Below are positions 9,218 to 48,727 of a DNA stretch of 59,609 nucleotides, one piece after another. Below the pieces are notes generated by a model. That model made no database searches. It saw nothing but the letters and a program-made list of their open reading frames with translations, and was not told where the DNA came from. Origin of the DNA: a virus; IMG/VR virus record IMGVR_UViG_3300046168_000017, positions 1-59,609 of that record. The stretch is one strand, 5' to 3'. The translations under genes were made by a program, and so were the position numbers. How positions within the stretch are numbered: the stretch's first letter is position 1; each line of letters opens with the position of its first letter.

Positions 9218-10774
9218 ATGTCAGACTTAATAGTCAAGAACCTTAACTTTGGTGACAAAGCTAGGGAAGAAGTATTTAAAGGTATAACAAAACTCACAAC
9301 TGCTGTTAGCTCCACACTTGGAGCTAGCGGTAAATGTGTGATGTTAGAAGATAATACTGGAAGACCAGTAATTACAAAAGATGGTGTAACAGTTGCAGAC
9401 TCAGTAATACTAAGAGATCCTGTTGAAAACATGGGTGCTACCTTATTAAAAGAAGCTGCTCGCAAAACAGTTAGAGAAGCAGGTGACGGTACAACTACAG
9501 CCACTGTTTTAGCTCATGCTATATTAAAGGAAGCTTATAAAGTATCAGATAAAACAAACTCTAGAGAGTTAAAAGACGGTATAAGTAAAGCTGTAGATAA
9601 AGTTGTAGAGTTTTTAAAAGCAAACTCAATAGATGTACAGGGAGATATGCTTAATCAAGTTGCTTCTATATCTACTAACAATGATAAATTTTTAGGCTCT
9701 ATTATTGCAGATGCTTTTAAAGCAGTAGATAACACTGGTGTAGTAATGATGGAAACCTCTGCAGATGGAAAAACAGAGTTTGAGGTAGTTGAAGGAGTAC
9801 AATATGATAAAGGTATTACAAATTCTCATTTTATAACTAACAAACAAAGCAATTCAGCTGAACTAGAAAATCCACTAGTATTGCTAATTGAATCTCCTGT
9901 AGAAACAATTAGGCAAATTCAATCAGTGCTAGAGTACGTAATAAAAAACAACAAACCTTTGCTTATTATAGGCGATTTAGAACAAGGTGTTTTATCAGCT
10001 CTAGCAATGAATAAAATGAAAGGTAATATAAAGGTTAATGTTATTAACGCTCCTACTTACGGAATAAACAAAAAGCAAATGCTTGATGATTTGTGCTTAT
10101 TAACAGGAGCTACTATAATAAACGAAGATCTTGGTGATGATATGGATTTAATCCAAGTTGAACACTTAGGTACATGTTTAAAAAGTATTACAACTCACGA
10201 TAGCACAATAATTCAAGTGGCTCAAGCTTCGCAAGAAATAAAAGCCATAATAGAAGATATAAAAGAAAAACTATTAAAAGAGAAAAACTCTAACAAAGTA
10301 ATTAGGTTAGAAAAAAGATTAGCTATGTTAGCTGCTAGAATTGCTATAGTAAAAGTAGGCGCTAACTCTGAAATTGAATTAAAAGAAAAAATGGATAGGG
10401 TTGAAGACGCTATTTGTGCTACAAAAGCTGCGGTTAAAGAAGGTATAGTATCGGGTGGAGGTATTGCTCTGCTTAATGCCTCTAATAATATCAAATCAAA
10501 TAATATTGGTGAAGATGTGCTGCTAAAAGCAATACAAGCTCCTTTTAAAACAATATTAGAAAACGCAGGTATAGAAACATTTGACCAAAACGCTAAAAAT
10601 GGTTTTGGTTTAGATGTAGTTACAGGAAATATGGTAAACATGATTGATTCAGGTATTATAGATCCTCTACTTGTTACTAAAAGCGCTTTAACAAATGCAG
10701 CTTCTGTGGCTACTACTATATTGTCAACTGATTGTGTAATAAATAATCTTAGAATTGATGAAGGCAATAGGTAG
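9218..10774 (+). CDS. groEL: Phage-encoded chaperonin GroEL (Cpn60)
   Basis: The 518 residues follow GroEL along their whole length. The ATP site is intact: ITKDGVTVA near residue 50, AGDGTTTATVL near 88-98 (its Asp matches the catalytic Asp87 of E. coli) and a C-terminal equatorial segment with RVEDAICATKAAVKEG, whose Asp matches Asp398, followed by VSGGGIALL. The protein is about 30 residues shorter than E. coli GroEL and lacks the Gly-Gly-Met tail. The next gene, overlapping by 17 bases, is GroES, the reverse of the usual bacterial order. A complete phage-borne GroEL/GroES pair is uncommon; its clients are probably the large capsid or fibre proteins (inference). Confidence 0.95.
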   Translation: MSDLIVKNLNFGDKAREEVFKGITKLTTAVSSTLGASGKCVMLEDNTGRPVITKDGVTVADSVILRDPVENMGATLLKEAARKTVREAGDGTTTATVLAHAILKEAYKVSDKTNSRELKDGISKAVDKVVEFLKANSIDVQGDMLNQVASISTNNDKFLGSIIADAFKAVDNTGVVMMETSADGKTEFEVVEGVQYDKGITNSHFITNKQSNSAELENPLVLLIESPVETIRQIQSVLEYVIKNNKPLLIIGDLEQGVLSALAMNKMKGNIKVNVINAPTYGINKKQMLDDLCLLTGATIINEDLGDDMDLIQVEHLGTCLKSITTHDSTIIQVAQASQEIKAIIEDIKEKLLKEKNSNKVIRLEKRLAMLAARIAIVKVGANSEIELKEKMDRVEDAICATKAAVKEGIVSGGGIALLNASNNIKSNNIGEDVLLKAIQAPFKTILENAGIETFDQNAKNGFGLDVVTGNMVNMIDSGIIDPLLVTKSALTNAASVATTILSTDCVINNLRIDEGNR

Positions 10775-11018
10775 GAATTTAATAATAAAGAAAACAAAAG
10801 AAGGTACCACTAAAACTAAAGGTGGTTTGCTTCTTGCTGAAAATCAAAGGGAAGATATAAGATACGTAGAGGCAACTGTTATATCAGTTGGAACAGAAGT
10901 GTTAGGTGTTAATGAAAAAGACATTATATTTTACGATAGACACGCTGGTCATAAAATAGAGATAGATAAACAGTCTTATAATGTTATAAAAGCTCAAGAT
11001 GTAGTAGTTGTGACATGA
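10758..11018 (+). CDS. groES: Co-chaperonin GroES (Cpn10)
   Basis: The product is an 86-residue GroES-fold protein. It has the N-terminal strand (KAIGRNLIIKK), a mobile-loop-like segment with KTKGGLLLAE, which in GroES binds the GroEL apical domain, and the C-terminal strand (YNVIKAQDVVVV). A TTG lies one codon upstream at 10755, but the ATG at 10758 is preferred. The start lies inside the end of groEL and the stop overlaps the next ATG (ATGA), so translation is probably coupled. It should close the ring of the adjacent GroEL. Confidence 0.88.
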   Translation: MKAIGRNLIIKKTKEGTTKTKGGLLLAENQREDIRYVEATVISVGTEVLGVNEKDIIFYDRHAGHKIEIDKQSYNVIKAQDVVVVT

Positions 11019-11923: not shown

Positions 11924-12136
11924 ATGAATCACGATATTGATAAAATTAAAAAAAATCCTAAACTAGAAGGACAAATAGGTGAAAACGCTATATGGGACGG
12001 ACCATTAGATAAGGCTGGTTTTCCTATGGGCGAAGGATCTAGCTCTGGAATTACAGGTATGCAAGTATCTAAATATCCCACAGCTTATTCAGCTGGACCT
12101 ATAACATCTAAGAGTTCTTTATATTCTAAAAAATAA
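11924..12136 (+). CDS. Small hypothetical protein
   Basis: The 70-residue product has a central Gly/Ser/Met-rich segment (PMGEGSSSGITGMQVSKY) and ends in SKK. It is in a tight run of small genes; its stop overlaps the next ATG by one base. No known family or catalytic motif is seen. Confidence 0.55.
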   Translation: MNHDIDKIKKNPKLEGQIGENAIWDGPLDKAGFPMGEGSSSGITGMQVSKYPTAYSAGPITSKSSLYSKK

Positions 12137-12336
12137 TGTACACATCTCCACTATTTAAAGATTTCCCTGAAATAAAGGAAAAGAACAAAGGAAAGTTTAC
12201 AGCTTGGGCTAAGAAAAACGGGTTTAAAGACGCGTGCTCTGCGGCTACAGCTGTTATGGCGAAAAAAGATAAATACAGCGATGAAGTAGTCAAGATGGCT
12301 AACTACGCAAATAACTTCGGTTGTAAAAAAAAATAA
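12136..12336 (+). CDS. Small SPL-tagged protein with Cys-Lys tail
   Basis: The 66-residue, strongly basic protein begins MYTSPLFKDF and ends in FGCKKK. The middle (AWAKKNGFKDACSAATAVMAKKDKYSDEVVKMANYA) looks like a compact helical unit with a regular Ala/Lys pattern. The same N-terminal SPL/SPF motif occurs in several adjacent small genes, suggesting a shared role or target in the virion. Function is unknown. Confidence 0.6.
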   Translation: MYTSPLFKDFPEIKEKNKGKFTAWAKKNGFKDACSAATAVMAKKDKYSDEVVKMANYANNFGCKKK

Positions 12337-12585
12337 ATGAAAAGTAATTCACCATTTAAACAAGATAAATGCGCAGCTGCTTGGGCAAAGAAAAAAGAAA
12401 GCTATATGTCAAGAAAGTCTAAAACTAGTTTAGACACGTCTAAGAAAAACAAAGCTGGAGGTTATGATAAAAAAGAAATTCCAATAAGCGAAAAAGAAAA
12501 TCTAGCTGAATACAATAGAGAAAAAGGAGAATTTGAATGTGTTAACGGAAAAATTGTTCTTAAAAAAACTGGTGACGATCAATAA
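12337..12585 (+). CDS. Small SPF-tagged basic protein
   Basis: The 82 residues begin MKSNSPFKQDKCAAAWAKKK and continue very Lys-rich. The first 18 residues resemble the start of the upstream protein (SPF/SPL followed by a Cys/Ala/Trp-Ala-Lys-Lys segment). The coding start directly abuts the previous stop. No function can be given. Confidence 0.6.
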   Translation: MKSNSPFKQDKCAAAWAKKKESYMSRKSKTSLDTSKKNKAGGYDKKEIPISEKENLAEYNREKGEFECVNGKIVLKKTGDDQ

Positions 12586-12600
12586 TAAATATAATACAAT

Positions 12601-12801
12601 ATGGCATTTTATATAAATAGTCCTTTTCACATGGAAGATAAACAATGTGAGTCATGGAGAAAACAAGCAGCTAAACTTGACAAGGAAGTAAAAGCCTTAA
12701 GAGCTGAAAGCAAAAAAACAGGCAAAGTAACAAACTGGGATGCTAAAGCAGATGAATTGTCTAGAGTAAGAGAAAGAATAGCAGAAAAATGTAAAAAATA
12801 A
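12601..12801 (+). CDS. Small SPF-tagged coiled-coil protein
   Basis: This 66-residue protein opens MAFYINSPFHMEDKQCESW and is then a predicted alpha-helix with heptad-like Leu/Ala spacing, ending in AEKCKK. It shares the SPF motif and the Cys-Lys tail with neighbours. It could be a small virion or assembly factor. Unknown function. Confidence 0.6.
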   Translation: MAFYINSPFHMEDKQCESWRKQAAKLDKEVKALRAESKKTGKVTNWDAKADELSRVRERIAEKCKK

Positions 12802-12806
12802 TATAT

Positions 12807-13061
12807 ATGAAATTTTCATCACCATTTATGGCAAAAAGTCCACTTAATCAAGAGTTTGGAGAAAAAGAACCTTCTGTTGTTGAGACAGATGCTAGCAAAG
12901 AAAAAAGAGAATTATCTCAAAAAACAAAAGACTCTTTACAGCAAAAAGCTTGTAAAAGAGATAAACCTTTTTATAGTAAAAAACACGGAAAATACGTTGA
13001 ATGCGAAGATGGCGTATTAACAAATACACCAAAAAACACATCAACATACGAAAAAATATAA
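12807..13061 (+). CDS. Small SPF/SPL-tagged protein
   Basis: The 84-residue product starts MKFSSPFMAKSPLNQEFG, with two copies of the motif (SPF and SPL) within 13 residues. A charged middle region precedes CKRDKPFYSKKHGKYVECEDG, a Cys-bounded basic segment. It is one of the clearest members of the SPF/SPL group in this window. Confidence 0.6.
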   Translation: MKFSSPFMAKSPLNQEFGEKEPSVVETDASKEKRELSQKTKDSLQQKACKRDKPFYSKKHGKYVECEDGVLTNTPKNTSTYEKI

Positions 13062-13063
13062 CT

Positions 13064-13897
13064 ATGAGTTCACCATTTCAAAGAGCCTTTGCGGCTAAAT
13101 CACCACTACCAAATCATGGTAAGATACAAAAAAAACTAGACAAGCTTAATAAAAAATATGGTGACACTGATTTTTATGAAAGAGAAGATGTTCAAAATTT
13201 AATTAAGAAAAAAACAGCTGCTAAAGAAGCTCACAAGTCTGATAAAAAAACTTTACCTATTGATGATAAAAATAGTTACGACTATGACTATGATCAAAAT
13301 GAAGATATAACTACTGCTAAAAAAGCGCCATTAAAAAAAAACTATAGCCCTTTAGATCAAGGTGGTTATGTAGGAGGTGGTATGAGTAGAAGTGATTACG
13401 CACCAACTGCTGATCTTTATCAAAACATGTTTAATAAAGTAGAGTCTGCAACTAAAGACTTTATGGACGGTCAAGCTGATGTTGAAGCAAGAGCTGAGTC
13501 TGGAGAGGCTAGAGCAATGAGGAGAGATAGGAAATTTAAAAAAAAAGGCGCGTCAATGAGTAAAAAAAGGCAAGCTAGTTTCAATGAAAAAACTGATGAA
13601 GTTATTGAAAGAGCTGCTGATTTTAGAGAATTAGCTAACGCTAAACAACAGAGAGCTACAGACGCGGCTAATGCTACAAATTCAACAAAGACTACAACAA
13701 CACCGGCAACACCAACAACACCACCATCCTCAAATCCACCAAACTCACCGCAAAAACCTGCTACAAATAACGCATGGGCTAATCTTTTTAATATTGTTCA
13801 AGGATATGCGGATGAAACACAACAAGCGGCAATTAAAAATTTCAATAAAGCAATAAACCCAAATATAAACAATCAAATACAGGAAAAAAATAGCTAA
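13064..13897 (+). CDS. SPF/SPL-tagged charged structural protein
   Basis: The ATG at 13064 is chosen because the preceding frame (open from 13001) overlaps the upstream gene, and because the protein then begins MSSPFQRAFAAKSPLPNHG, again the double motif. The 277-residue product is highly charged, with a Tyr/Asp patch, a GGYVGGGMSRSDY segment, a long Lys/Arg/Ala helical middle, and a Thr/Pro-rich linker near residue 215-240. It resembles an elongated, partly disordered virion or scaffold protein. Not recognised. Confidence 0.6.
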   Translation: MSSPFQRAFAAKSPLPNHGKIQKKLDKLNKKYGDTDFYEREDVQNLIKKKTAAKEAHKSDKKTLPIDDKNSYDYDYDQNEDITTAKKAPLKKNYSPLDQGGYVGGGMSRSDYAPTADLYQNMFNKVESATKDFMDGQADVEARAESGEARAMRRDRKFKKKGASMSKKRQASFNEKTDEVIERAADFRELANAKQQRATDAANATNSTKTTTTPATPTTPPSSNPPNSPQKPATNNAWANLFNIVQGYADETQQAAIKNFNKAINPNINNQIQEKNS

Positions 13898-15294: not shown

Positions 15295-15603
15295 ATGGCT
15301 TTTAAATTAACAAACCCTCCTTACAAAACACATCAAACTCCAGTTTATCACGTTGATATGGAAGATGATGTAATGGGTAAAGCTAATAATAATGGAACAA
15401 TAATTATAAATAAAAACGTTGATCCTAAGGATATACCTTCTGTTATTGCTCATGAGGAAGTTCATATAGATCAAATGAAACGTGGTGATTTAGATTACGA
15501 CGATGAAAACGTTTATTGGAAAGGTAAGAAATATTCACGAGCTGCTATGGAAGAAGGTGCTAAAAACCTACCATGGGAAGCTGAAGCGTATAAAAACGCA
15601 TAA
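15295..15603 (+). CDS. Putative zinc metallopeptidase-like protein (HExxH)
   Basis: The 102-residue product contains HEEVH at residues 53-57, a HExxH zinc/catalytic motif, followed by ID. A likely third ligand glutamate lies near the C terminus (LPWEAEAY, residues 92-99), a pattern seen in small phage and bacterial Zn-dependent peptidases. There is no signal peptide. If active it could process virion proteins or help entry through the cell wall. Assignment rests on motif and short length. Confidence 0.6.
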   Translation: MAFKLTNPPYKTHQTPVYHVDMEDDVMGKANNNGTIIINKNVDPKDIPSVIAHEEVHIDQMKRGDLDYDDENVYWKGKKYSRAAMEEGAKNLPWEAEAYKNA

Positions 15604-15806
15604 TGAATTTTTCAGAAAAAGGTTATCTAAGTGATAGTCCTGATGTAGATAAACATCAAAATATAATACAAGGTAATAAAATAACAATGAAAGGTGTTGA
15701 ATTTAAAGTTCTAGGAACAGACGATAGAGGATATACTAAGATAATGTATCCAGGATATGACTACACGTTTCCAGGGGCTAAATACGTAATAGAAACAAAA
15801 ATTTAA
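15603..15806 (+). CDS. Small hypothetical protein
   Basis: 67 residues; the start overlaps the previous stop by one base. The sequence has short beta-like stretches (ITMKGVEFKVLGTDDRG, YTKIMYPGYDYTF). An SDSP motif occurs near residue 10. No known family. Confidence 0.5.
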   Translation: MNFSEKGYLSDSPDVDKHQNIIQGNKITMKGVEFKVLGTDDRGYTKIMYPGYDYTFPGAKYVIETKI

Positions 15807-15816
15807 AATAAAAAAA

Positions 15817-16176
15817 ATGAGTTCAGCATTTTATCAAAAGCATTCAGCAAAAAATCCAATAAAGCAATTACAACAAGCGTATGAAAATGCAGAAACTGGA
15901 GATCTTATAGACGAAAGTGTACATGAAAATACTACATACAAGTCTAATAACTTGAAAGATAAAATATCAGGGATGAAGTATAACGTTGAAAATATTAGTG
16001 AAATACAAGAAGATGACAAAGGTCAATTCATGACAACTCTAGATCAAGACGAGTCCTACGGTGGTCCAAGACCTACAAGTTCTACTGTTACAAATTACGA
16101 TCAAGGCAAAGATCAACCTAGAGATACGTTAAGACCTTACGCTGGAAAGTATTTTAAAAAACCAAGAAAAAGCTAG
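15817..16176 (+). CDS. Small basic/acidic protein with SPF-like start
   Basis: The 119-residue product starts MSSAFYQKHSAKNPIKQ, which looks like an altered form of MSSPF...KSPL in the gene at 13064. It is polar, with no membrane segment, and ends KYFKKPRKS. Its stop overlaps the GTG of the holin gene. Confidence 0.55.
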   Translation: MSSAFYQKHSAKNPIKQLQQAYENAETGDLIDESVHENTTYKSNNLKDKISGMKYNVENISEIQEDDKGQFMTTLDQDESYGGPRPTSSTVTNYDQGKDQPRDTLRPYAGKYFKKPRKS

Positions 16177-16574
16177 TGAAAAAAATTTGGGAATGGTTAA
16201 GCGGTAACGTTATCAAAGATGTTGGTGAGGTTATTGACAATTTAACAACCACTGAAGAGGAAAAACTTCAAATCAAAAAAGACATACAAGTTATAGTTGA
16301 GAAAGCAGCTGCTACAGCTGAAGATCAAATAACAAAACGATGGGAAGCAGATATGACGTCTGACTCTTGGCTTAGTAAGAACACGCGTCCTATGGCACTT
16401 ATTTTCTTATCGTTTATGGCTATAGCTTTTATATGGGTGGATAGTCATCATGAAATATCTTTCACTGTAGAACAAGAGTGGATAGAATTATTAAAGCAAT
16501 TATTAACAACCGTATACGTAGCATACTTTGGCTCACGTGGTTTCGAAAAATATAAATCAATAAGTAATAAATAA
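16176..16574 (+). CDS. Putative holin (gene-transfer-agent 3-TM holin type)
   Basis: The 132 residues begin with an amphipathic helix (KKIWEWLSG), a long charged helix (about 20-60), and a WLSKNTRPMAL segment followed by a membrane stretch (73-88). A second hydrophobic stretch (about 104-119, LLKQLLTTVYVAYFG) ends in SRGFEK. The pattern (WLSKNTRP, a membrane span, and a C-terminal AYFGSRG end) matches holins of GTA/phage type. It starts with GTG (16176) overlapping the previous stop. It is far from the amidase at 48.0 kb, so the lysis genes are split. Confidence 0.7.
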   Translation: MKKIWEWLSGNVIKDVGEVIDNLTTTEEEKLQIKKDIQVIVEKAAATAEDQITKRWEADMTSDSWLSKNTRPMALIFLSFMAIAFIWVDSHHEISFTVEQEWIELLKQLLTTVYVAYFGSRGFEKYKSISNK

Positions 16575-22868: not shown

Positions 22869-22893
22869 TATTTAATTATATTATATTATGTCA
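22869..22893 (+). promoter_or_regulatory. Shared start leader, copy 1
   Basis: The bases from TATTTAATTATATTA through the start codon and Met-Ser codons at 22869-22893 are identical to 25626-25650. Both precede head genes whose products begin MS. A conserved leader that contains the start codon suggests a fixed translation or promoter element. Confidence 0.5.
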
Positions 22894-24084
22894 GAAATCA
22901 AAACAAATGAACCTGTTAAGCAGGAAGGTGAATTCAAAATAAAAAAGAAAACGCCTAAAAACCTAGTAGAAAAAGATCAAATTAAACCTATAAAAGTAGA
23001 TCTAAATAAAGATCCAAACGTTAATATAGAAAAGCCAATAAAGGTAGAAATAAAAAAAGAAGACGATGCCATTCAAATCGGAGAAACAAAGAAGGTATCT
23101 GTGGAAGAACCATCCGGAGATAGCGCAAAGGTGGGAGAACCTGTACAAGAGTCCGACGAGACTACTGAAGGGTTTTCTCCGATCAAAGAAGTAACTGATG
23201 AAGTTAAAGAAATTGAACAAGAAGTAAAAGAAGCTGTAAGAGATGAAAAGGTAATAGGTAAACCTTTACCAGAAAACATTGAAAAGCTAGTTTCTTTTAT
23301 GGAAGACACTGGTGGAACTATAGAAGATTACACTAGATTAAACGCTGATTACACAAGCGTAGATGACAATACTTTATTAAAAGAGTATTATAAAAAATCT
23401 AAACCACATTTAGATTTAGAAGAAATTAATTTCATAATGGAAGAAAACTTTGATTATGATATAGATATTGACGAAGAGCGAGAAGTCAAAAAAAAGAAAC
23501 TCGCTAAAAAAGAAGAGGTTGCAAAAGCTAAAAACTTTTTAGAGGAAACGAAAAAGAAATATTACGACGAAATCAAGTTGAGACCCGGCGTAACTCAGGA
23601 CCAACAAAAAGCTATGGATTTTTTCAACCGATATAATAAGGAGCAAGAAATAGCTACACAACAACACGATTTATTTAAACAAAAAACTAAAAATTTATTT
23701 AATGACGATTTCGAAGGTTTCGATATTAAAGTTGGAGATAAAAGATATAAGTATAATGTCGTTAATCGTGATAAAGTAGCCGAAAGCCAATCTAACATAA
23801 CAAACCTTGTCGGGAAGTTCCTAGACAGCGAAGGTAATGTGGAAGATGCTAAAGGTTATCATAAAGCTATTTATGCTGCTGAAAACGTAGATAAGATTGC
23901 CGCTCATTTTTATGAGCAAGGAAAAGCAGATGCTGTAAAGGAAGTTGTAAACAAATCAAAAAATCTAAGTGATACTGAAGGTAGAAAATCACAAGGAGAT
24001 GTATTTGTTGGCGGAATGAAAGTAAAAGCTATTTCTGGTGCAGACTCTACAAAACTTAAAATTAAAACAAAAAGGTTTAACTAA
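22888..24084 (+). CDS. Putative scaffold or head-assembly protein
   Basis: The 398-residue protein lies between portal and the capsid gene, where a scaffold is usual. It is strongly charged, Lys/Glu-rich throughout, with an acidic middle and predicted coiled coils (about 100-190 and 190-290), and it has no hydrophobic membrane segment. Scaffolds are typically such elongated, charged proteins. A separate protease domain is not visible. The role is inferred from place and composition. Confidence 0.6.
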   Translation: MSEIKTNEPVKQEGEFKIKKKTPKNLVEKDQIKPIKVDLNKDPNVNIEKPIKVEIKKEDDAIQIGETKKVSVEEPSGDSAKVGEPVQESDETTEGFSPIKEVTDEVKEIEQEVKEAVRDEKVIGKPLPENIEKLVSFMEDTGGTIEDYTRLNADYTSVDDNTLLKEYYKKSKPHLDLEEINFIMEENFDYDIDIDEEREVKKKKLAKKEEVAKAKNFLEETKKKYYDEIKLRPGVTQDQQKAMDFFNRYNKEQEIATQQHDLFKQKTKNLFNDDFEGFDIKVGDKRYKYNVVNRDKVAESQSNITNLVGKFLDSEGNVEDAKGYHKAIYAAENVDKIAAHFYEQGKADAVKEVVNKSKNLSDTEGRKSQGDVFVGGMKVKAISGADSTKLKIKTKRFN

Positions 24085-39532: not shown

Positions 39533-40040
39533 TCCTTTGGTTAGAAAAATACAATTAGAAGCTGAGGTCAGAGTAAAGCCCTTAATGGCTAAATTCCAAC
39601 AAGACCTTTACAAAAAACATGACACTGATACTCCAGAAGGAGTTGCTGCTTTTAATAAAGAAAGTGAGAAAAAATACTCAGAGCTTATTAATCAAGATTT
39701 ATCTTCTAACGACGATTATTCGGATAGAGTAAAACAAATAGCTGCTGTAGGAAACAAAGCTTTTCAAACAGCTAATAACGCTTTTAATAGAGACAATAGC
39801 TGGTTAGGTTTTTTAGATGATGCTCAAGAAATGGCAGATGGTCTTGGACCAGTCGAATTTTGGGTTGATCTTGCGGCAAATTCAATTGAAGGTTTTGCAA
39901 AAGGTAGTAGAGGCATCGGAACTGGTATTGATAAAATGCAAGCTAGTTACGATGTTCAAAGGGCAAAACAAGCTAAAGATAAATTAAAAGATTTAGATAA
40001 TTTACAAAAAGCAGGTAAATTAAAGGAGACTCTAAAGTAA
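39501..40040 (+). CDS. Charged helical protein, possible continuation of upstream gene
   Basis: The 179-residue frame starts in a 32-base overlap with the gene at 38234 and ends one base into the next. The sequence is helical, Lys/Asp-rich and matches the preceding protein in style. A +1 shift would fuse the two. No separate family is recognised. Confidence 0.45.
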   Translation: MRQLEPKFKADPLVRKIQLEAEVRVKPLMAKFQQDLYKKHDTDTPEGVAAFNKESEKKYSELINQDLSSNDDYSDRVKQIAAVGNKAFQTANNAFNRDNSWLGFLDDAQEMADGLGPVEFWVDLAANSIEGFAKGSRGIGTGIDKMQASYDVQRAKQAKDKLKDLDNLQKAGKLKETLK

Positions 40041-43000
40041 TGTATTACGGTAGAAAAATAACTGTTAACGAAGCCCGTAAAGCATTAGAGTTAGAAGAAA
40101 AAGACTGGACTAAAGCTTTAGAAAATAATTTAGACGAAATAAAATTATCTGATGAAATTTTAAAAAAATACCAATCAGCTGATCTTTCAGACGGTGACAT
40201 AAGCTGGAAAGATATTGTTTTAACAACTTCTGAAGCTTTACCTCAAATAGCTTTAGCAACAGCTGGTGCTGCCGCGGGAGCTGCTACTGGCGGAGCAGCT
40301 ATAGCTCCTTTACTAGGCGCCCTTGGTACAGTTACTATGGGTGTTACAATGTATGGTGACGCATATATGGACGCGGCAGAAACTGGAGCGCAAGAAGATT
40401 ACGATGCAATTAATGGAGCTGGATCATATAATCAACTAGAAGATAAGGATAGAAGAGAGTTTTTAATAAAGGGTCTTAAAAGTGGTAGATATCATAATAT
40501 TGGAGAAGCTGCTTTAACAGCTGCTGTTCAAACTGGCATGGAAAAAATTGGTGCTGGTAAGATTTTATCTAAAACTCAAAAAGCTTTAGGTGTTGGTAAA
40601 AACGGTTTGTCTTCTATAATAGCAGGTGACTTAAGATCAGGTTTAAAAAACATAACAGCTGGAGCTTTAAGTAAGCTAGAAGCTGGAGGTACAGAGTTTA
40701 TAACAGAATGGGGTCAAGAAATAATTGGTGGCATAGGTAAAGGTATGATGGTTGAAGGTTCAGGGAACCAAGGAGCTATGAGATATGTTGACATGGATGC
40801 TGCTTACGACGCCGCTAAAGCTGGTGGAATAGTTGGTATTGCTATACCATTTGCTGGTAGCGTTGCAAAGCAAAGTAGTATAGAGGTTAGAAACATGGCT
40901 AGAAATGTAGCTATAAACTTTGCACCAAGTAGTAATTTCGGTAAATCAGCTGCAGTCAATGCTCAGTTTTTTAAAAATGCTCAAAATCAATTAGACAAAA
41001 GATTAAAATCTGGTAAAAATCCAGACGGAACACCTTACACTAAAGAACAGCATCAAGAGGATTCTATAAATTTAGCTAATGTTAAGAATGCTGGTGATAA
41101 AATACCTTCTTCTGTTACTGATCCTCAGACTAGAGGTAAAATGTTAGATCTTTTAATTAAAAGAGATAATCTTGAAAGAAAAATAGCTGACGTAGATGAC
41201 AGTGACTTAACCGCTGAAGAAGACGCAGAACTACAAGAGACAAAACAAGAGCTAAGAGAGGTGATGAAGCAAGAGTCTTTGTTTTCTACTAACAACAATG
41301 TAAGAGCCGCTATAGAAAAATCTGGCAAAGGTAATATTGAATTTCAAGACTTTGGAAATGCTCAAGAAATGAATGACTATGCTAAGCAAAAGAAAATTGA
41401 TGGTTGGCAGGAGAAAAACTCAGCTAATCACGGTGTGGTTTTATATGATTCTAAAACAGGTAAAGAACAAATACTCATTAACAATGAACTGTCATTAAAA
41501 GACTCTAATGTAAATGTAGGAGCTCATGAATTTTTACATACCGTATTAAGAAGCACGGTTCAAAACAGTAAAGGAACAGCTATTGCCTTAGGTAAAAGCT
41601 TACAAACTTATATCGAAGGAATAGATAGCACTCAAGTTGATAGTAATTCTGATTATGGTAAAAGACTAGCTGCTTATAAAGACGATCCAGCTAGTATAAG
41701 AGGTGAAGAAGCTATAACACTATTTAGTGATGGTATTGCTAATGGCTCTATAAAGTTCAACGAAGGTGTTTTTACTAAAATAGGTGATGCTATACGTAGA
41801 ACATTGCAAGCAGCAGGTATTAAAAACGTTAAATTTAATACAGGTAAAGATGTTTATAATTTTGTTAAAGACTACAACAAAAGCATTGAAAAAGGTAAAG
41901 GATTAAACAAAGCTCAACAAGCGTTACTAGATGGTAGAGCAGAAGGAGATTTAGTTAAAAGAGAATATAAAAGCAAACCTAAAACAGACAGCTCTGTAGA
42001 TATGGGGTTAGAAACAGAGGTTGATTTAGGTGTTGTTAAATCTTCTAAACCTACAGTTTTAGAATCAATAAACGAAACAGTACCTAAAGATATATCTACA
42101 AAAGCAGATTATGACGCTATGCTTAGAGATCCTAAAAAAGGTTCTACTGTATTAAACTCTGTTATAAACGAAGGTGGAGCTATTAATAACTATATTAGAA
42201 GTAGATCGACAAGTAAGGCTGAAGCAGAAAAAGCTATAGAAGGTGTAACTGATAGAATACTAAACTTTAATCCTGAAGCGTTAAGAGCTGATGGTAAGAA
42301 AGTTGGTATGGAAGGATTTGGTGAGGCTATATTTGCTAACACTAGATTTGCAAAAATGGATGCTAAAAAAGCTTTAGCAAAAGAATCAGAAAAAGCTAAA
42401 CAAGAACAAAGCACAGATAGTGATATTGTTAGAGAAATAGCTAGCACACCTGAAAGCTCTACATCTACAGAGAAACAAACAGCAAAAGCTCAATCACCTA
42501 GAGCAACAAATCAATTTACACCTTCTTTTTCTCAAGGACTACAAGTTGATACAGAAGGTAAAACTACTGCTGAAGTAAATGAAGAAATAAACCAACAGTT
42601 TGATAAAGCTATTGATTCTGATTTACAAGCATTAGGACAGGTTACTAGCTTTGGTCAAACTAAAAACATAGGACCTGCTGTAGCTGCTTTAATGGAGAAA
42701 GCAACAGGTATGCCTGCTAAAGTTTTTACAGATAAAAGCAAAAACATAGCAAAAAAAGATGCTACATCTGGAGCTTTAACAAACGTAAAACAATATCTTA
42801 ATAAAAATGCTCAAAGAGATTTTAAAAATCTTCCTGATGCATTTGCTAAAGATAGCGGTAAAGCTACTTTTATACCTGAAAATGTTAAAAAGGCTTTATA
42901 TAAAAAGAACGATAAAGGTCAATTTGTCTTAGATAAAAGTAAAACTTTAAAAGATTATAAAGAACTACTTGGAGACATGGAAAAACCTGTTTATAGAGCT

Positions 43001-46000
43001 GCTGAAGCTCAAACTATAAAAGGTTTAGTTGCGCTTTCTCTTAGAAACATGATGTTTGAAAAAGCTGTTCCAAGTACACAAGCAAGAGCAACAACAGGTG
43101 TTAAGTTTAGTAAGCAAATACCTGCAGATACCGACAAAGGTAAATCTCAGCTTAAAGACATAGGTGTTGCTAGAGACATGAATAAAGTTGCTGAAATTTC
43201 TGGTGTAGGTAAAATCGGTATTACTCCTGAAAACATAGCAGAAAAAAGAGCTCAAATGACTAGCTCTATAGTAGATCAAAACATATCAAGCATAGCTTTT
43301 AATAATGGAAAATTTGCTAACTTTGGTAGATCATACAAAACTATAGATGGTGTAAAATATTTCAAGCTAACAAACGGTAAGACAGTTAAAAATGGCAGCA
43401 AAGAGTATAAAAAAGCTGTAAAAGACGAAACATTTATGCCGGCAAAAGGTAGCTTATATTATTCAACAAAGCAAAAAGCATATATAGCAGATCAAGAACT
43501 AGCTGCGGCTAATGATGCTATGTATCCTAATCTACCAAAAGCAAAAAGAGTTAATGTAAAAGACGCTGGAACTAAAAAAGCAAATGCCCAGTCTAAAGCT
43601 AATTTAGATATATTAGAAGCCGTTGCCACTCAATTAGAAACAGCAGTTGCTAATGGTATGCCTATGGAAATAGCTGCTTTGTTTATAACTTCTAGTTATC
43701 AAGCCACTACAGGTTTAATAAAAATATCAGCTCCTTTTTCTGCAGAGTCAGATAAAATGGAATATGCTGAGATTGGTAAATCAAATCAAGTTGGAGGTAA
43801 AGAAGCTTTTAGAGAAGAACATAGTCCACCTGCTTCTGTTGTAGGTGGTAGTTTAATTTGGGCTATTAAAAATGGTCAAGTTAAACAAATAATGCAAGGA
43901 ATAAGAGATAATTATATACAAGTAAAGTTATCTAAAAAAGACGATGTAAAACTAGACAATGCTAAATTAGATTCTACCTTACCAGAAGGCGTTAGCATAA
44001 TTACACCAAATGCTGGTATAATAAGAATGGCGGAAGCTGGAATAGATTTAAATAGTATAACAGATTATAAATCAGGAAAAAGCTTTGCTGATATAATGGG
44101 TGTTGGTGTTGACTTAAAATCTAGTAAAAGAAATCCTAATATAATATATGCTCAAAATGCTTTAATATCTGAGCAAATAAATAATGACTTAGATCCAAAA
44201 ATAACTCAAGCGAGAATAAAAGCTTATGAACCTATTGCAGCGTTAGAAGTTAAAGCTAGTAAATCAAACAATAAAACTTTTAGTGGTAAGGTTAATACTG
44301 AAATGACAATAGCTGATCAACTTACAACCTTAGGAGCTTACGACCAAGCTGCTAGAAAAGCTAGAGCTTTAGATACACCTAAAAAAGGTATAAGTGTATT
44401 TGACTTTGATGATACGCTTGCTAGAACTAAAGAAAAAGTTATAGTAAACAAACCAGGTGAAGTTTCAGTAGAGATATCTGCAGCTAAATTTGCAGAAACA
44501 GCTAGTCAACTAGAATCAGAAGGAGCTACATTTGACTTTAGCAACTTTGAAGGAGTTGCAGATGGAACTAAAAAAGGTCCTTTAGCAGATTTAGCTTTGC
44601 GTAGACAAGAAAAATTTGGTAACAAAGATATATTTGTTTTAACTGCTAGACCTCAAGTGTCAGACAAAGCTATTAAAACTTTTCTAGATGGTATTGGTTT
44701 AAACTTACCTATAGGAAACATAACAGGATTAGGAAACGGAACACCTGGCGCTAAAGGTAATTGGGTTGCTCAAAAAGCCGCCGAAGGATATAATGATTTT
44801 TATTTTGCTGATGATGCTTATAAAAACGTAGAAGCTGTGCAAGAAGTTTTAAGTCAAGTAGATGTTGATTCAGAAGTGCAAATAGCTAAGTTTAGTAAAG
44901 TTAAAACTTTTGATAAAATATTTAATGATATAATAGAAAGTTCTACTGGTATTGAGACTTTTAAAGAGTATTCTAAAGCAAGAGGTCAAATGACAGGTAA
45001 GAAAAAAGGTAGATTTAGTTTTCTTACAAGTCCTTCTGCTGAAGATTTTTTAGGTTTATTATACAAAACACTAGGCAAAGGAAAAATAGGAGATGCTCAA
45101 CTAGATTTTTACAAGAAAAATTTAATCGATACATACGATAGAGCGGAATTAGCAGTAACAAAAGCTAAGATACAGGCTGCTAATGATTTTAAAGCTTTAA
45201 AAAAGAATTTAAAAACACTACCTAAAAGTTTATCAAAAGAAATGGGTTATGGTGGTTTTACTTTTTCTCAAGCAGCTAGAGTTGCAGCTTGGACAAGACA
45301 AGGTTTAAACGTACCTGGTTTATCTAAAACTGACTTAAAAGCTCTTAATGATTTTATAGACAATAATCCTGAAATGAATACCTTTGTTGATGAGCTTATT
45401 AAAATCCAAAAAGGTAAACCATATCCTGCTCCAAGTAAAGACTGGCTAGGTGGAACTATTACTAGTGATATATTAAATGACATAAACAAAGTAAATAGAA
45501 AACAGTACTTACAAGAGTGGCAAGAAAATGTAGACATTATATTTTCTGAAAAGAACATGAACAAGCTAGAGGCTGCGTATGGTCCTAAATACGTAGAAGC
45601 GTTGCGAGATCAACTTCGTAGAATGAAGAGTGGTTCTAATAGACCTATTGGCGGATCTAGAGTTGTTAATCAATTACTAGACTGGCTTAATAATTCAGTT
45701 GGTGCTATTATGTTTCTTAACACTAGATCAGCGGTTTTACAGACGCTTTCAGCGGTTAACTTTATAGGTGTAGGAAATAACGGTATCATAAACTCAGCTA
45801 AAGCTTTTGCTAATCAAAAACAATATTGGTCAGATTTTAAAACATTAATGAATTCTCCTTATTTAACGGAAAGACGTAATGGTTTAAAAATAAATGTAAG
45901 TGAATCTGAAATAGCAGATGCTGTTGCTGAAAGTTCAAACAAACCTAAAGCAGCTTTAAGTTTTCTTCTTAATAAAGGATTTATACTTACTAGATTTGCA

Positions 46001-47053
46001 GATAGTTTTGCTATAGCAACTGGAGGCGCTGCTTTTTATAGAAACCAATTAAACATGTATGTTGAGCAGGGTATGCCGATGGAGATGGCTCAAAAGAAAG
46101 CTTTTCAAGATTTTTATACTATAGCAGAGAAAAATCAGCAATCAAGTAATCCAAGTAAAATATCACAACAACAAGCTTCAGGTGCTGGACGTGTTGTACT
46201 AGCGTTTGCTAACACACCTATGCAGTATGCTCGTATAATAAAAAGATCTTCTCAAGATTTATTAAACGGCAGAGGTGATTGGAAGAAGCATGTTGGTACT
46301 ATAGCTTTTTATGGTGTTGCACAAAACCTTATATTTAGTGCTTTACAGAACGCTTTATTTTCTGAGGCGTTTGGAGAAGATGAAGAAGATGAACAAAAAG
46401 AAGATAAAGCTGGTAGAATAGCAAATGGCATGGCTGATTCATTATTGTCAGGTTTAGGTATACAAGGTAAAGCTGTTTTATCTTTGAAAAACGCTTTAAT
46501 AACTTTAGCCAAAGAAAACGATAAAAGATCACCTAAGTTTGTAAAAGCTGTTTATGATTTATTTGATTTTTCACCTCCGCTAGATTCTAAATTTAGAAAA
46601 CTAAGATCAGCAGCTAACACTTTTACTTGGGAAAGAAAAACTATGGACGAAAAAGGTTTTAGTCTTGATAATCCAGCTTATTTAGCAGGAGCTCAAGTTA
46701 TATCTGGTTTAACTAATCTACCTCTTGACAGAGCTATATCTAAGTTAAACAATATTAGAGGTATAATGAGTGAGCAGTCTGAAAAATGGCAAAAAGTTGC
46801 ATTAGCTTTAGGCTGGTCAACATGGGATGTTGGATTAGGTTACTATGGTGGATTTGATCCAGTTAAACCGTTGACTGAAAAAGAGCAGTATGAAGTTGAT
46901 GTAAAAACAATGAAATTAGACACAAATACTAAGCAGCAGAAACAAATGCTATTAGATTTAGGTTTAACAAAAGCTGAAATTAAAAAACTTCGCTATGAAG
47001 AAGATAGAGTTAAAAAAATAATTGCATTACAAAAAAAGAAAAAAGATAAATAA
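40040..47053 (+). CDS. Giant polyvalent internal virion protein (metallopeptidase-like and HAD motifs)
   Basis: At 2337 residues this is the largest gene. Hydrophobic Ala/Gly segments (about 70-110) could cross a membrane. An HExxH motif (HEFLH, 496-500) suggests a zinc metallopeptidase. A HAD-type phosphatase domain lies about 1450-1620: DFDDT (D1455/D1457), LTAR (T1535) and FADDA (D1591/D1592). C-terminal sequence with ANTPMQYARIIKRSSQDLLNGRGDWKKH is characteristic of large marine phage virion proteins. It probably enters the cell with the DNA and modifies nucleic acids or proteins early (inference). Confidence 0.65.
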   Translation: MYYGRKITVNEARKALELEEKDWTKALENNLDEIKLSDEILKKYQSADLSDGDISWKDIVLTTSEALPQIALATAGAAAGAATGGAAIAPLLGALGTVTMGVTMYGDAYMDAAETGAQEDYDAINGAGSYNQLEDKDRREFLIKGLKSGRYHNIGEAALTAAVQTGMEKIGAGKILSKTQKALGVGKNGLSSIIAGDLRSGLKNITAGALSKLEAGGTEFITEWGQEIIGGIGKGMMVEGSGNQGAMRYVDMDAAYDAAKAGGIVGIAIPFAGSVAKQSSIEVRNMARNVAINFAPSSNFGKSAAVNAQFFKNAQNQLDKRLKSGKNPDGTPYTKEQHQEDSINLANVKNAGDKIPSSVTDPQTRGKMLDLLIKRDNLERKIADVDDSDLTAEEDAELQETKQELREVMKQESLFSTNNNVRAAIEKSGKGNIEFQDFGNAQEMNDYAKQKKIDGWQEKNSANHGVVLYDSKTGKEQILINNELSLKDSNVNVGAHEFLHTVLRSTVQNSKGTAIALGKSLQTYIEGIDSTQVDSNSDYGKRLAAYKDDPASIRGEEAITLFSDGIANGSIKFNEGVFTKIGDAIRRTLQAAGIKNVKFNTGKDVYNFVKDYNKSIEKGKGLNKAQQALLDGRAEGDLVKREYKSKPKTDSSVDMGLETEVDLGVVKSSKPTVLESINETVPKDISTKADYDAMLRDPKKGSTVLNSVINEGGAINNYIRSRSTSKAEAEKAIEGVTDRILNFNPEALRADGKKVGMEGFGEAIFANTRFAKMDAKKALAKESEKAKQEQSTDSDIVREIASTPESSTSTEKQTAKAQSPRATNQFTPSFSQGLQVDTEGKTTAEVNEEINQQFDKAIDSDLQALGQVTSFGQTKNIGPAVAALMEKATGMPAKVFTDKSKNIAKKDATSGALTNVKQYLNKNAQRDFKNLPDAFAKDSGKATFIPENVKKALYKKNDKGQFVLDKSKTLKDYKELLGDMEKPVYRAAEAQTIKGLVALSLRNMMFEKAVPSTQARATTGVKFSKQIPADTDKGKSQLKDIGVARDMNKVAEISGVGKIGITPENIAEKRAQMTSSIVDQNISSIAFNNGKFANFGRSYKTIDGVKYFKLTNGKTVKNGSKEYKKAVKDETFMPAKGSLYYSTKQKAYIADQELAAANDAMYPNLPKAKRVNVKDAGTKKANAQSKANLDILEAVATQLETAVANGMPMEIAALFITSSYQATTGLIKISAPFSAESDKMEYAEIGKSNQVGGKEAFREEHSPPASVVGGSLIWAIKNGQVKQIMQGIRDNYIQVKLSKKDDVKLDNAKLDSTLPEGVSIITPNAGIIRMAEAGIDLNSITDYKSGKSFADIMGVGVDLKSSKRNPNIIYAQNALISEQINNDLDPKITQARIKAYEPIAALEVKASKSNNKTFSGKVNTEMTIADQLTTLGAYDQAARKARALDTPKKGISVFDFDDTLARTKEKVIVNKPGEVSVEISAAKFAETASQLESEGATFDFSNFEGVADGTKKGPLADLALRRQEKFGNKDIFVLTARPQVSDKAIKTFLDGIGLNLPIGNITGLGNGTPGAKGNWVAQKAAEGYNDFYFADDAYKNVEAVQEVLSQVDVDSEVQIAKFSKVKTFDKIFNDIIESSTGIETFKEYSKARGQMTGKKKGRFSFLTSPSAEDFLGLLYKTLGKGKIGDAQLDFYKKNLIDTYDRAELAVTKAKIQAANDFKALKKNLKTLPKSLSKEMGYGGFTFSQAARVAAWTRQGLNVPGLSKTDLKALNDFIDNNPEMNTFVDELIKIQKGKPYPAPSKDWLGGTITSDILNDINKVNRKQYLQEWQENVDIIFSEKNMNKLEAAYGPKYVEALRDQLRRMKSGSNRPIGGSRVVNQLLDWLNNSVGAIMFLNTRSAVLQTLSAVNFIGVGNNGIINSAKAFANQKQYWSDFKTLMNSPYLTERRNGLKINVSESEIADAVAESSNKPKAALSFLLNKGFILTRFADSFAIATGGAAFYRNQLNMYVEQGMPMEMAQKKAFQDFYTIAEKNQQSSNPSKISQQQASGAGRVVLAFANTPMQYARIIKRSSQDLLNGRGDWKKHVGTIAFYGVAQNLIFSALQNALFSEAFGEDEEDEQKEDKAGRIANGMADSLLSGLGIQGKAVLSLKNALITLAKENDKRSPKFVKAVYDLFDFSPPLDSKFRKLRSAANTFTWERKTMDEKGFSLDNPAYLAGAQVISGLTNLPLDRAISKLNNIRGIMSEQSEKWQKVALALGWSTWDVGLGYYGGFDPVKPLTEKEQYEVDVKTMKLDTNTKQQKQMLLDLGLTKAEIKKLRYEEDRVKKIIALQKKKKDK

Positions 47054-47054
47054 A

Positions 47055-47366
47055 ATGAAGTCACCTATAAAACATTGTTTTAGTACACTAATGCACACGG
47101 AACCTTGGAATAAAATGAGAGGAACTACCGCTAAAGTATCAGGACGTGGAACTGGTAACAAAGTTGCTTTAAAACAAGCTAAAGAAAAAAGAAATACACC
47201 TATGGAACAATCTTCACCACTATATGGAAAAATAAGCGGCGCATGTAAAGCTGCGGCAAAAAAGAAATTTAAGGTTTGGCCTAGCGCTTACGCTTCTGGT
47301 TGGGGAGTAAGATGCACGAAGGCGGGTGGACCTGGTAACTTTGGTGGAGGTAAAAAGAAAAAATAA
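47055..47366 (+). CDS. SPI/SPL-tagged small basic protein
   Basis: The ATG at 47055 (after the giant gene) gives 103 residues beginning MKSPIKHCF, with EQSSPLYGK inside. A KVWPSAYASGWGVRC segment matches a short motif family of unknown function that is common in phages and large viruses (from memory). Many Gly/Lys at the C terminus. It is again an SP-tagged protein, far from the main group. Confidence 0.6.
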   Translation: MKSPIKHCFSTLMHTEPWNKMRGTTAKVSGRGTGNKVALKQAKEKRNTPMEQSSPLYGKISGACKAAAKKKFKVWPSAYASGWGVRCTKAGGPGNFGGGKKKK

Positions 47367-47719
47367 TGGCTTATATACAAAAAGGTTCTCCATTTGCTTG
47401 TTGGACAGGTTATAAAAGAAAACCTGGTACTAAAGAGTTTAGCAAAGGTAGTTGCGTTAAAGCATCACCTGTAACAAAACAAAAAGGTGGTGGCACTACT
47501 AAAACATGTTTACCTAAATCTAAAATAGATAATTTATCAGATGAAAAGAAAAAAGAATTAGTTAATTCTAAAAAATCCGCTGGAGCTAGCGGTAAATATA
47601 AAAGATCGTCTAAGACTAATGTTAAAGGCGCTCGAAAAAAAGGAGCTACACTTAGAGACTGGTTTGAAAAAGAAGACTGGAGAAGAGTTGATGATCCATC
47701 AAAAAAATGCGGAGAATAA
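47366..47719 (+). CDS. SPF-tagged small basic protein
   Basis: The 117 residues start MAYIQKGSPFACW and continue very Lys/Ser-rich, with KASPVTKQ and a C-terminal LRDWFEKEDWRR..DDPSKKC segment. Related C-terminal motifs occur in phage and virus proteins of unknown function. It overlaps its predecessor by one base. Confidence 0.6.
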   Translation: MAYIQKGSPFACWTGYKRKPGTKEFSKGSCVKASPVTKQKGGGTTKTCLPKSKIDNLSDEKKKELVNSKKSAGASGKYKRSSKTNVKGARKKGATLRDWFEKEDWRRVDDPSKKCGE

Positions 47720-47732
47720 TAAAACAAAAACT

Positions 47733-47873
47733 ATGGGAAAATTATTAGTAAAATTAGGATTAAAAATACAAGCATGGTGGTGTTTGTTTGAGTGTTGGTG
47801 GAATAGCATAGTAGCTAAACTTATGTTTAATGTTGAGACATGTCCTCACAAGTTATGCAAATGTAAGAAATAA
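47733..47873 (+). CDS. Small Trp/Cys-rich protein
   Basis: The 46-residue product has an amphipathic helix with WWCLFECWW and a Cys-rich tail (CPHKLCKCKK). The frame is open upstream to 47619, but the ATG at 47733 lies just after the previous gene and is preferred. Possibly membrane-interacting and part of the lysis region (inference). Confidence 0.45.
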   Translation: MGKLLVKLGLKIQAWWCLFECWWNSIVAKLMFNVETCPHKLCKCKK

Positions 47874-48037
47874 TGACTGAGCAAATAAAACTATACATAA
47901 TAAATGCCTCAACGCTAGGTGTTACAACTTTTACTACCTTAGAAATGGGTATGAAAATATTGCTTTTAGCAGTAACAATAGGTTATACCGTTACTAAATG
48001 GATAAATTTAAATAAAAAAGATGAGGACAATAAATAA
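47873..48037 (+). CDS. Small membrane protein, possible second holin or lysis factor
   Basis: The 54 residues carry one hydrophobic span (about 26-43, GMKILLLAVTIGYTVTKWI) with a short polar N terminus and a charged Lys/Asp end. It starts overlapping the previous stop and ends overlapping the amidase start by 17 bases. Single-span proteins beside endolysins often act as holins or pinholins. Confidence 0.55.
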   Translation: MTEQIKLYIINASTLGVTTFTTLEMGMKILLLAVTIGYTVTKWINLNKKDEDNK

Positions 48038-48446
48038 AATTATTGTTCACTGTTCAGCTACACAAGAAGGTAGAGATTTAGATGCCGCTGAAATAAATAA
48101 ATGGCATTTAAAAAGAGGTTGGAACGGCATTGGTTACCACTATGTAGTTTTATTAGATGGTACTATAGAATACGGCCGTAGTATATACAAACAAGGCGCT
48201 CATGTTAAAGGTGAAAATGAAGGTTCTATAGGAATTTGTTACATTGGAGGCGTCGAATCAGAACGTGGATCTAACGGCAAATGGATTGCTAAAGATACTA
48301 GAACACCTGAACAAAAAGAAAGCTTGTTATTGTTGCTTAAAACATTAAAAAAAATGCATTCGAAGGCTACAATACATGGTCACAACGAGTTTGCAGCAAA
48401 GAGCTGCCCGTGCTTTGATGCTAATAAAGAATATTGTAATATATGA
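48021..48446 (+). CDS. N-acetylmuramoyl-L-alanine amidase (T7-lysozyme-like endolysin)
   Basis: The 141-residue product matches T7 lysozyme in size and motifs. Zinc ligands H10, H121 and C129 match H17, H122 and C130 of T7 lysozyme, and K127 matches its K128. It cleaves the bond between the glycan and the peptide stem of peptidoglycan, releasing progeny. It has no signal peptide, consistent with holin-dependent export. In T7 this protein also inhibits the phage RNA polymerase; no such polymerase is seen here. ATGA overlap with the next gene. Confidence 0.88.
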   Translation: MRTINKIIVHCSATQEGRDLDAAEINKWHLKRGWNGIGYHYVVLLDGTIEYGRSIYKQGAHVKGENEGSIGICYIGGVESERGSNGKWIAKDTRTPEQKESLLLLLKTLKKMHSKATIHGHNEFAAKSCPCFDANKEYCNI

Positions 48447-48727
48447 AATCACCATTAAACATAAAAGAAAAAGCTTACGAAAAGCAAAATAGAAAAATGC
48501 GTAAAGATTATACCAAAGAAACTGGTAAAACTTTAGGTTCAAGACAGACGTCTGGAACTGGAAAGAGAAGAGTTTCATTTGCTTGTAGATTTGCTGGTAT
48601 GGCTGGAGCAATGAAAGACGCTAAAGGAGAGCCAACTAAAAAGGCGATGGCTTTAAAGAAATGGGGTTTTGGTAGTGTTGAAGCTGCTAGAAATTTTTGT
48701 CAAAAAAATAAAGAGAAAAAATCATAA
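48443..48727 (+). CDS. SPL-tagged small basic protein
   Basis: The 94 residues begin MKSPLNIKEKAYEKQNRK and continue with SFACRFAGMAGAMKDAKGEPTKKAMALKKWGFGSVEAA, a motif family seen in several phages, function unknown (from memory). It is the last plus-strand gene before the convergent terminator and is translationally coupled to the amidase. Confidence 0.6.
   Translation: MKSPLNIKEKAYEKQNRKMRKDYTKETGKTLGSRQTSGTGKRRVSFACRFAGMAGAMKDAKGEPTKKAMALKKWGFGSVEAARNFCQKNKEKKS

Follow-up and report, generated by a model that had tools for sequence, protein, structure and literature searches.

In the stretch of viral DNA analysed here (the window, 59,609 nucleotides), three short plus-strand open reading frames with a related serine-proline-hydrophobic start flank an endolysin gene between 47 and 48.7 kb. 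The first (47055..47366, 103 aa) fuses an MKSPIKHC module to an SSPLYGKIS module. A TTG start at 47022 would overlap the preceding gene, so a longer form is unlikely. Its match to DUF5872 (PF19197) scored 14.5 bits, below the gathering threshold of 27.5, and is taken as a resemblance only. The second (47366..47719, 117 aa) starts with MAYIQKGSPFACW and joins the MAYIQKGSPFACW module to a SPVTKQKGGGTTKTCLP module. The third (48443..48727, 94 aa) carries an MKSPLNI tag and a DUF6321 domain (PF19846; E=9e-11, 42.7 bits, gathering threshold 28.5), identified via Pfam, an alignment of orthologues (A1) and an AlphaFold model. The endolysin is an N-acetylmuramoyl-L-alanine amidase (48021..48446, plus strand; Amidase_2, E=2e-12, 48 bits, gathering threshold 26). 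A hydrophobic plus-strand protein of 54 aa (47873..48037), for which the Pfam search returned no match, is a candidate holin by its sequence. The three frames with a shared type of start beside the endolysin, as described in an earlier note on this DNA, were thus confirmed. That note missed that several proteins of this lysis-side island are fusions of modules, with an SPx of its own leading each module. The SSPLYGKIS half of the first protein is found as a separate gene, MSSPLYGKIS, in relatives.

The AlphaFold model of the DUF6321 protein has a mean pLDDT of 86, and its first helix begins at residue 4, at the SP. The model of the second protein is of low confidence (62). A fold search of the PDB with the DUF6321 model found no significant match, and a search for solved-structure relatives of DUF6321 and KGGG-module proteins gave none that was convincing. 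Before the island, at 40040-47053, lies a 2,337-aa protein with a HEFLH motif and no Pfam match. Proteins of 2,800-3,100 aa occupy the same place in relatives. It probably belongs to the virion, as an internal protein or as one that is ejected.

A second group of tagged plus-strand genes lies on the terminase side at 12-16 kb (island A). It opens with frames of 66 aa (12136..12336, MYTSPLFKDF..., SPLF or SPFF in orthologues), 82 aa (12337..12585, MKSNSPFKQDKC..., orthologues at 18 loci with the SPF before QDKC kept), 66 aa (12601..12801, MAFYINSPFHM..., with an orthologue at locus L260) and 84 aa (12807..13061, a double tag MKFSSPFMAKSPL, also with orthologues). The following 277-aa protein (13064..13897) starts with the full tag MSSPFQRAFAAKSPL, which is kept in relatives (L182/L260). 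This bipartite peptide is the best-developed tag of the window and was likewise missed in the earlier reading; an ATG at 13001, upstream of the gene, is probably unused. Further along, a zincin-like metallopeptidase of 102 aa (15295..15603, HEEVH) begins with the tag variant MAFKLTNPPYK, and its orthologues carry KSPF/TSPF or NPP. It matches DUF6782 and the phrog_87 metallo-protease weakly. The next gene encodes a 67-aa protein (15603..15806, GYLSDSPDV...GNKITMKGV). Its homologue (36% over 66 residues) is the N-terminal region of the 895-aa gp040 of Cellulophaga phage phi4:1, a protein that its MS/MS-based annotation assigns to the virion. This domain is free-standing in the window phage and forms the N-terminus of a virion protein in phi4:1. 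A 119-aa protein (15817..16176) has the tag-like start MSSAFYQKHSAKNPIKQ, and the neighbour gene in the same place in L260 has MSSPFYQQFSAKSPL. The frame at 16176-16574 resembles GTA_holin_3TM (20.3 bits, below the cut-off of 24.8), so island A may also hold a lysis gene, in parallel to the endolysin of the other island. Directly upstream of island A are GroEL and GroES-like genes (9218-11018), which tagless relatives have too.

The frequency of the motif was compared with chance. Within residues 2-26, SP[FLMI] is present in 8 of the 66 window genes; shuffled N-termini gave 0.71 such genes on average and never more than 6 in 5,000 trials. All 8 lie within the two islands (11.0-18.1 kb and 47.06-48.73 kb; 27 genes against 39 elsewhere, Fisher p=4e-4). 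The comparison was extended to about 260 related viral loci, in which ORFs were called and reduced to 60% identity. Unprompted k-mer enrichment over 830 short-ORF representatives returned SPF as the top N-terminal tripeptide (53 vs 4.05 expected), followed by SPL (37 vs 4.95 expected); at the N-termini of long proteins of related contigs, SPF was counted 5 times vs 0.4 expected. By position, the motif was found in 86/700 proteins at residues 2-26 and in 26/688, 14/540 and 8/358 in the three bins that follow. Immediately before P[FLM], Ser was counted 98 times (7.5 expected), Thr 20 times (4.9 expected) and Asn 12 times (5 expected). Chance or composition as the source of the tag was rejected by the k-mer enrichment, the shuffles and these pre-proline counts. 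The tagged proteins are also lysine-rich (16% vs 9.4%, p=5e-17) and positively charged.

The tag residues were then followed through the orthologues of the three lysis-side genes. For the DUF6321 protein, proline was found at the same spacing in 41/48 distinct orthologue N-termini, mostly as [ST]P, with GPA in a minority; two sequences in alignment A1 (L092, L093) begin beyond the tag position and have no tag. Module 1 of the 47055 protein keeps [ST]P[MLFI] in 14/14 relatives. In the 47366 protein, [SN]P[LFM] stands at identical spacing in 24/38 relatives, and several others have SPF slightly upstream. Its alignment (A2) shows SPx at every module start where the CWxGY module is present, and the tag directly joined to the next module where it is absent. 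The three proteins carry only the minimal tag, [ST]P[FLIM], in which proline is kept more strictly than the serine and the third letter. The earlier note had named a lack of conservation in these orthologues as the result that would overturn a functional tag; the residues are conserved in all three sets, and that refutation fails.

Many proteins of relatives start with a longer form, MSSPFQKxFSAKSPL. A search of IMG/VR with the DNA pattern for MSSPFxxxFxxKSP[LIMV] found at least 80 stretches, many with two or three copies; in 257 Gb of cellular genomes a single stretch was found, which is about the chance level. The 71 complete proteins with the full tag have remainders that fall into 22 unrelated families. 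Positions outside the fixed pattern are conserved as well (Q6 in 62/71, S10 in 56/71, L15 in 48/71). Information is 2.9 bits at residue 15 and about 1 from residue 16, where conservation ends. With the shorter motif, 309 tagged proteins gave 67 core clusters, several of them with both serine codon families (TCN and AGY); single-linkage clustering of the cores without composition correction had merged lysine-rich proteins, and the stricter run is the one reported. A literature search for the peptide strings found nothing relevant, and a comparison of the tagged proteins with PADLOC matched no known defence or counter-defence family. One pattern match lies in a 266,899-base contig (L328) with neither the clade terminase nor the clade capsid; it may be chance or a transfer to a much larger phage.

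S, T and N are classic helix N-cap residues. The [ST/N]P[hydrophobic] pattern could thus be a mere helix N-cap with a hydrophobic staple, recurring from protein design and module shuffling without a common partner. The S, T or N before the proline and the helix beginning at the SP in the model of the 48443 protein fit this explanation. It leaves unexplained the conservation of Q6, K7, S10 and A11 on 22 unrelated remainders, and also the absence of the tag from sister clades and from the cellular genomes beyond that one chance-level hit. We consider it improbable as a full account.

Neutral descent is a further explanation, in which recent duplication, or recombination at a common start sequence, would have left the tag behind. 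Several tagged genes are adjacent, and a contig often has two or three full tags, as this explanation would predict. It was examined on contigs with two full tags. The two peptides are 87% identical, a value inflated by the fixed pattern positions, whereas identical residues are encoded by different codons in 38% of cases, a figure that this inflation does not touch. The 45 bases flanking the paired tags show an identity of 0.40 upstream and 0.34 downstream, near chance. Synonymous divergence together with chance-level flanks excludes recent duplication, tandem duplication included, and implies selection on the peptide. With the residues also retained in orthologues, the neutral explanation is largely refuted and is very improbable. 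The tag is almost certainly a selected, clade-specific feature. The earlier argument for a functional tag and against recent tandem duplication is therefore supported by the codons, the flanks, the unrelated remainders and the orthologues; the dispersion of the genes, on which that argument was built, is weaker evidence.

The distribution of the tag was compared with phage relationships. The capsid and portal of the window are closest to those of the flavobacterial podoviruses Maribacter Panino, Flavobacterium elemo and Cellulophaga phi38:1, and a marine flavobacterium is the presumed host on the strength of these relatives. Among 44 contigs with tagged genes, the window terminase (at least 71% identity) was found in 42 and the window capsid protein in 37; several of the others are fragments. 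The terminase frame is interrupted in two relatives, by stop codons inside the match in G004 and by a match in three pieces in G001, from assembly errors or inserts. The tagged set was sought in cultured relatives and sister clades, such as elemo and phi38:1, and was absent. The tag is confined to one uncultivated marine podovirus clade. The closest cultured relatives by capsid and portal, the flavophages of Elemovirus and Pervagoviridae/Pachyviridae (elemo, phi38:1, phi19:3, Panino, Gundel), differ from this clade in having neither the tagged set nor the zincin.

In five long relatives, the tagged genes lie mainly before the terminase and after the giant protein of 2,000-3,000 residues. Both islands are within the late operon and flank the structural block. 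In one of the five (G009), the DUF6321 gene is in the terminase-side island and not in the lysis-side island, which indicates that the islands are interchangeable and that the two groups are one system. This bears out the earlier view that the starts at 47-48 kb are of the same kind as those at 12-16 kb. In G015, the most remote of these relatives, the tagged genes number only two; the set thus shrinks away from the window's branch.

The modules themselves have a wider distribution than the tag. DUF6321, to which the 48443 protein belongs, is found outside the clade in pelagiphages and Methylophilales phages, and an algal giant virus has a listed protein of DUF5872, the family that the core of the 47055 protein resembles (PMC12085832). 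Both are families of unknown function that are not defined by the tag, and the clade tag extends to proteins outside both. DUF6321 and CWxGY lysine-rich modules also occur without the tag in pelagiphages, Methylophilales phages and cyanophage P-RSM6, some of them beside capsid or terminase genes; SP[FLM] was absent from the CW-module protein of P-RSM6.

The reading that we favour, with a probability of roughly 45%, is that the tagged proteins are loaded into the virion. The unrelated remainders, the richness in lysine, the late islands, the homology of the 15603 protein to virion protein gp040 and the precedent of T4 point to it. Weighing against it are the DUF6321 genes of phages outside the clade, the two untagged sequences of A1, the lack of a sequence link to the T4 peptide and of a recognised prohead protease, and the equally good fit of lysine richness to nucleic-acid binding in the infected cell. 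The SPF/SPL residues are what is seen of an N-terminal tag, specific to the clade, that selection maintains on many unrelated small late proteins; its minimal form is [ST]P[FLMI] and its full form MSSPFQKxFSAKSPL. This tag would act as a loading signal in the manner of the capsid-targeting sequence (CTS) of the T4 internal proteins. It would dock all of these proteins to a single invariant assembly partner, for example the scaffold, the portal or the prohead; the scaffold candidate of the window lies at 22888-24084. The docking element would probably be a short capped amphipathic helix, and the full tag resembles a pair of short helices, each capped, with F5 and F9 sharing one face. Lysine-rich proteins from a changing repertoire, associated with DNA or directed against defence, would then enter the particle along with the genome and be ejected into the host.

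The same peptide could dock late proteins inside the infected cell to one host or phage partner, such as the nucleoid, RNA polymerase, the membrane or the phage chaperonin encoded beside island A, without their ever entering the particle. Many docking motifs are likewise short and Pro/hydrophobic, richness in lysine also fits nucleic-acid binding in the infected cell, and the chaperonin genes adjoin island A. Yet the tagless cultured relatives also encode chaperonins, the tagged genes sit within the late structural arm, and the 67-aa island protein has its homologue in the N-terminus of a virion protein. Intracellular docking is therefore judged unlikely. SPx may instead be a processing site, with multi-module precursors and tagged proteins cut at SP[FLM] or close to it and the island zincin as a possible protease. 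An SPx stands at each junction of fused modules, and the small HExxH zincin, located within the island, was found in 28/30 clade records but in 0/6 tagless relatives. Most tags, however, stand so close to the N-terminus that a cut there would free almost nothing; zincin homologues occur in 236 viral stretches and in T4-like phages of unrelated hosts; and no tag was seen where the major capsid and portal proteins of the window begin. Such a role for SPx is doubtful. The alternatives to virion loading thus rank in the order intracellular docking, processing site, helix cap and neutral leftover.

Virion loading was compared with two known systems. T4 internal proteins are diverse, and the CTS alone is their common conserved part (PMC3012670). 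The likeness of the clade's proteins to IPI, IPII and IPIII covers the short conserved N-terminal peptide, the diverse remainder, the small lysine-rich late proteins and a location by the lysozyme, since the T4 ipII and ipIII genes adjoin the lysozyme gene. Unlike T4, the clade has several tagged genes in two islands. Neither SP[FLM] nor [STN]P[FLMIV] was found in the first 30 residues of T4 ipII and ipIII, a check of two proteins and not a full profile comparison, and it gives no sequence link between the tag and the T4 CTS. Comparison of the window with Pfam, PHROG and NCBIfam brought up no recognisable gp21-type prohead protease; the putative small zincin is present. The tag may thus work like the T4 CTS and yet appears to lie outside that family. 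Similarly, phages of Bacteroidota in the Crassvirales store many proteins in the particle for ejection, with gp45, gp46 and RNA polymerase subunits described as such cargo in phi-crAss001 (PMC10172136). That cargo is large (60-277 kDa), and the portion of the report drawn on here names no common N-terminal tag; the clade's proteins are small and variable.

The small late genes of marine phages are mostly without known function or detectable relatives, and a selected common tag gives one testable property for dozens of families together. Should the tag be a loading signal, carriage into the host is predicted for every gene that bears it. Carried proteins of the T4 type may counter defence or bind DNA. 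The T4 system would in that case also have a second counterpart, built on an unrelated peptide, and there would be a simple peptide to direct proteins into flavobacterial phage particles. A broader proposal, held more tentatively than loading itself, is that throughout the clade one transplantable address tag with no sequence relation to the T4 CTS loads an open-ended set of rapidly exchanged small proteins into the particles, with the two islands as dedicated swap sites.
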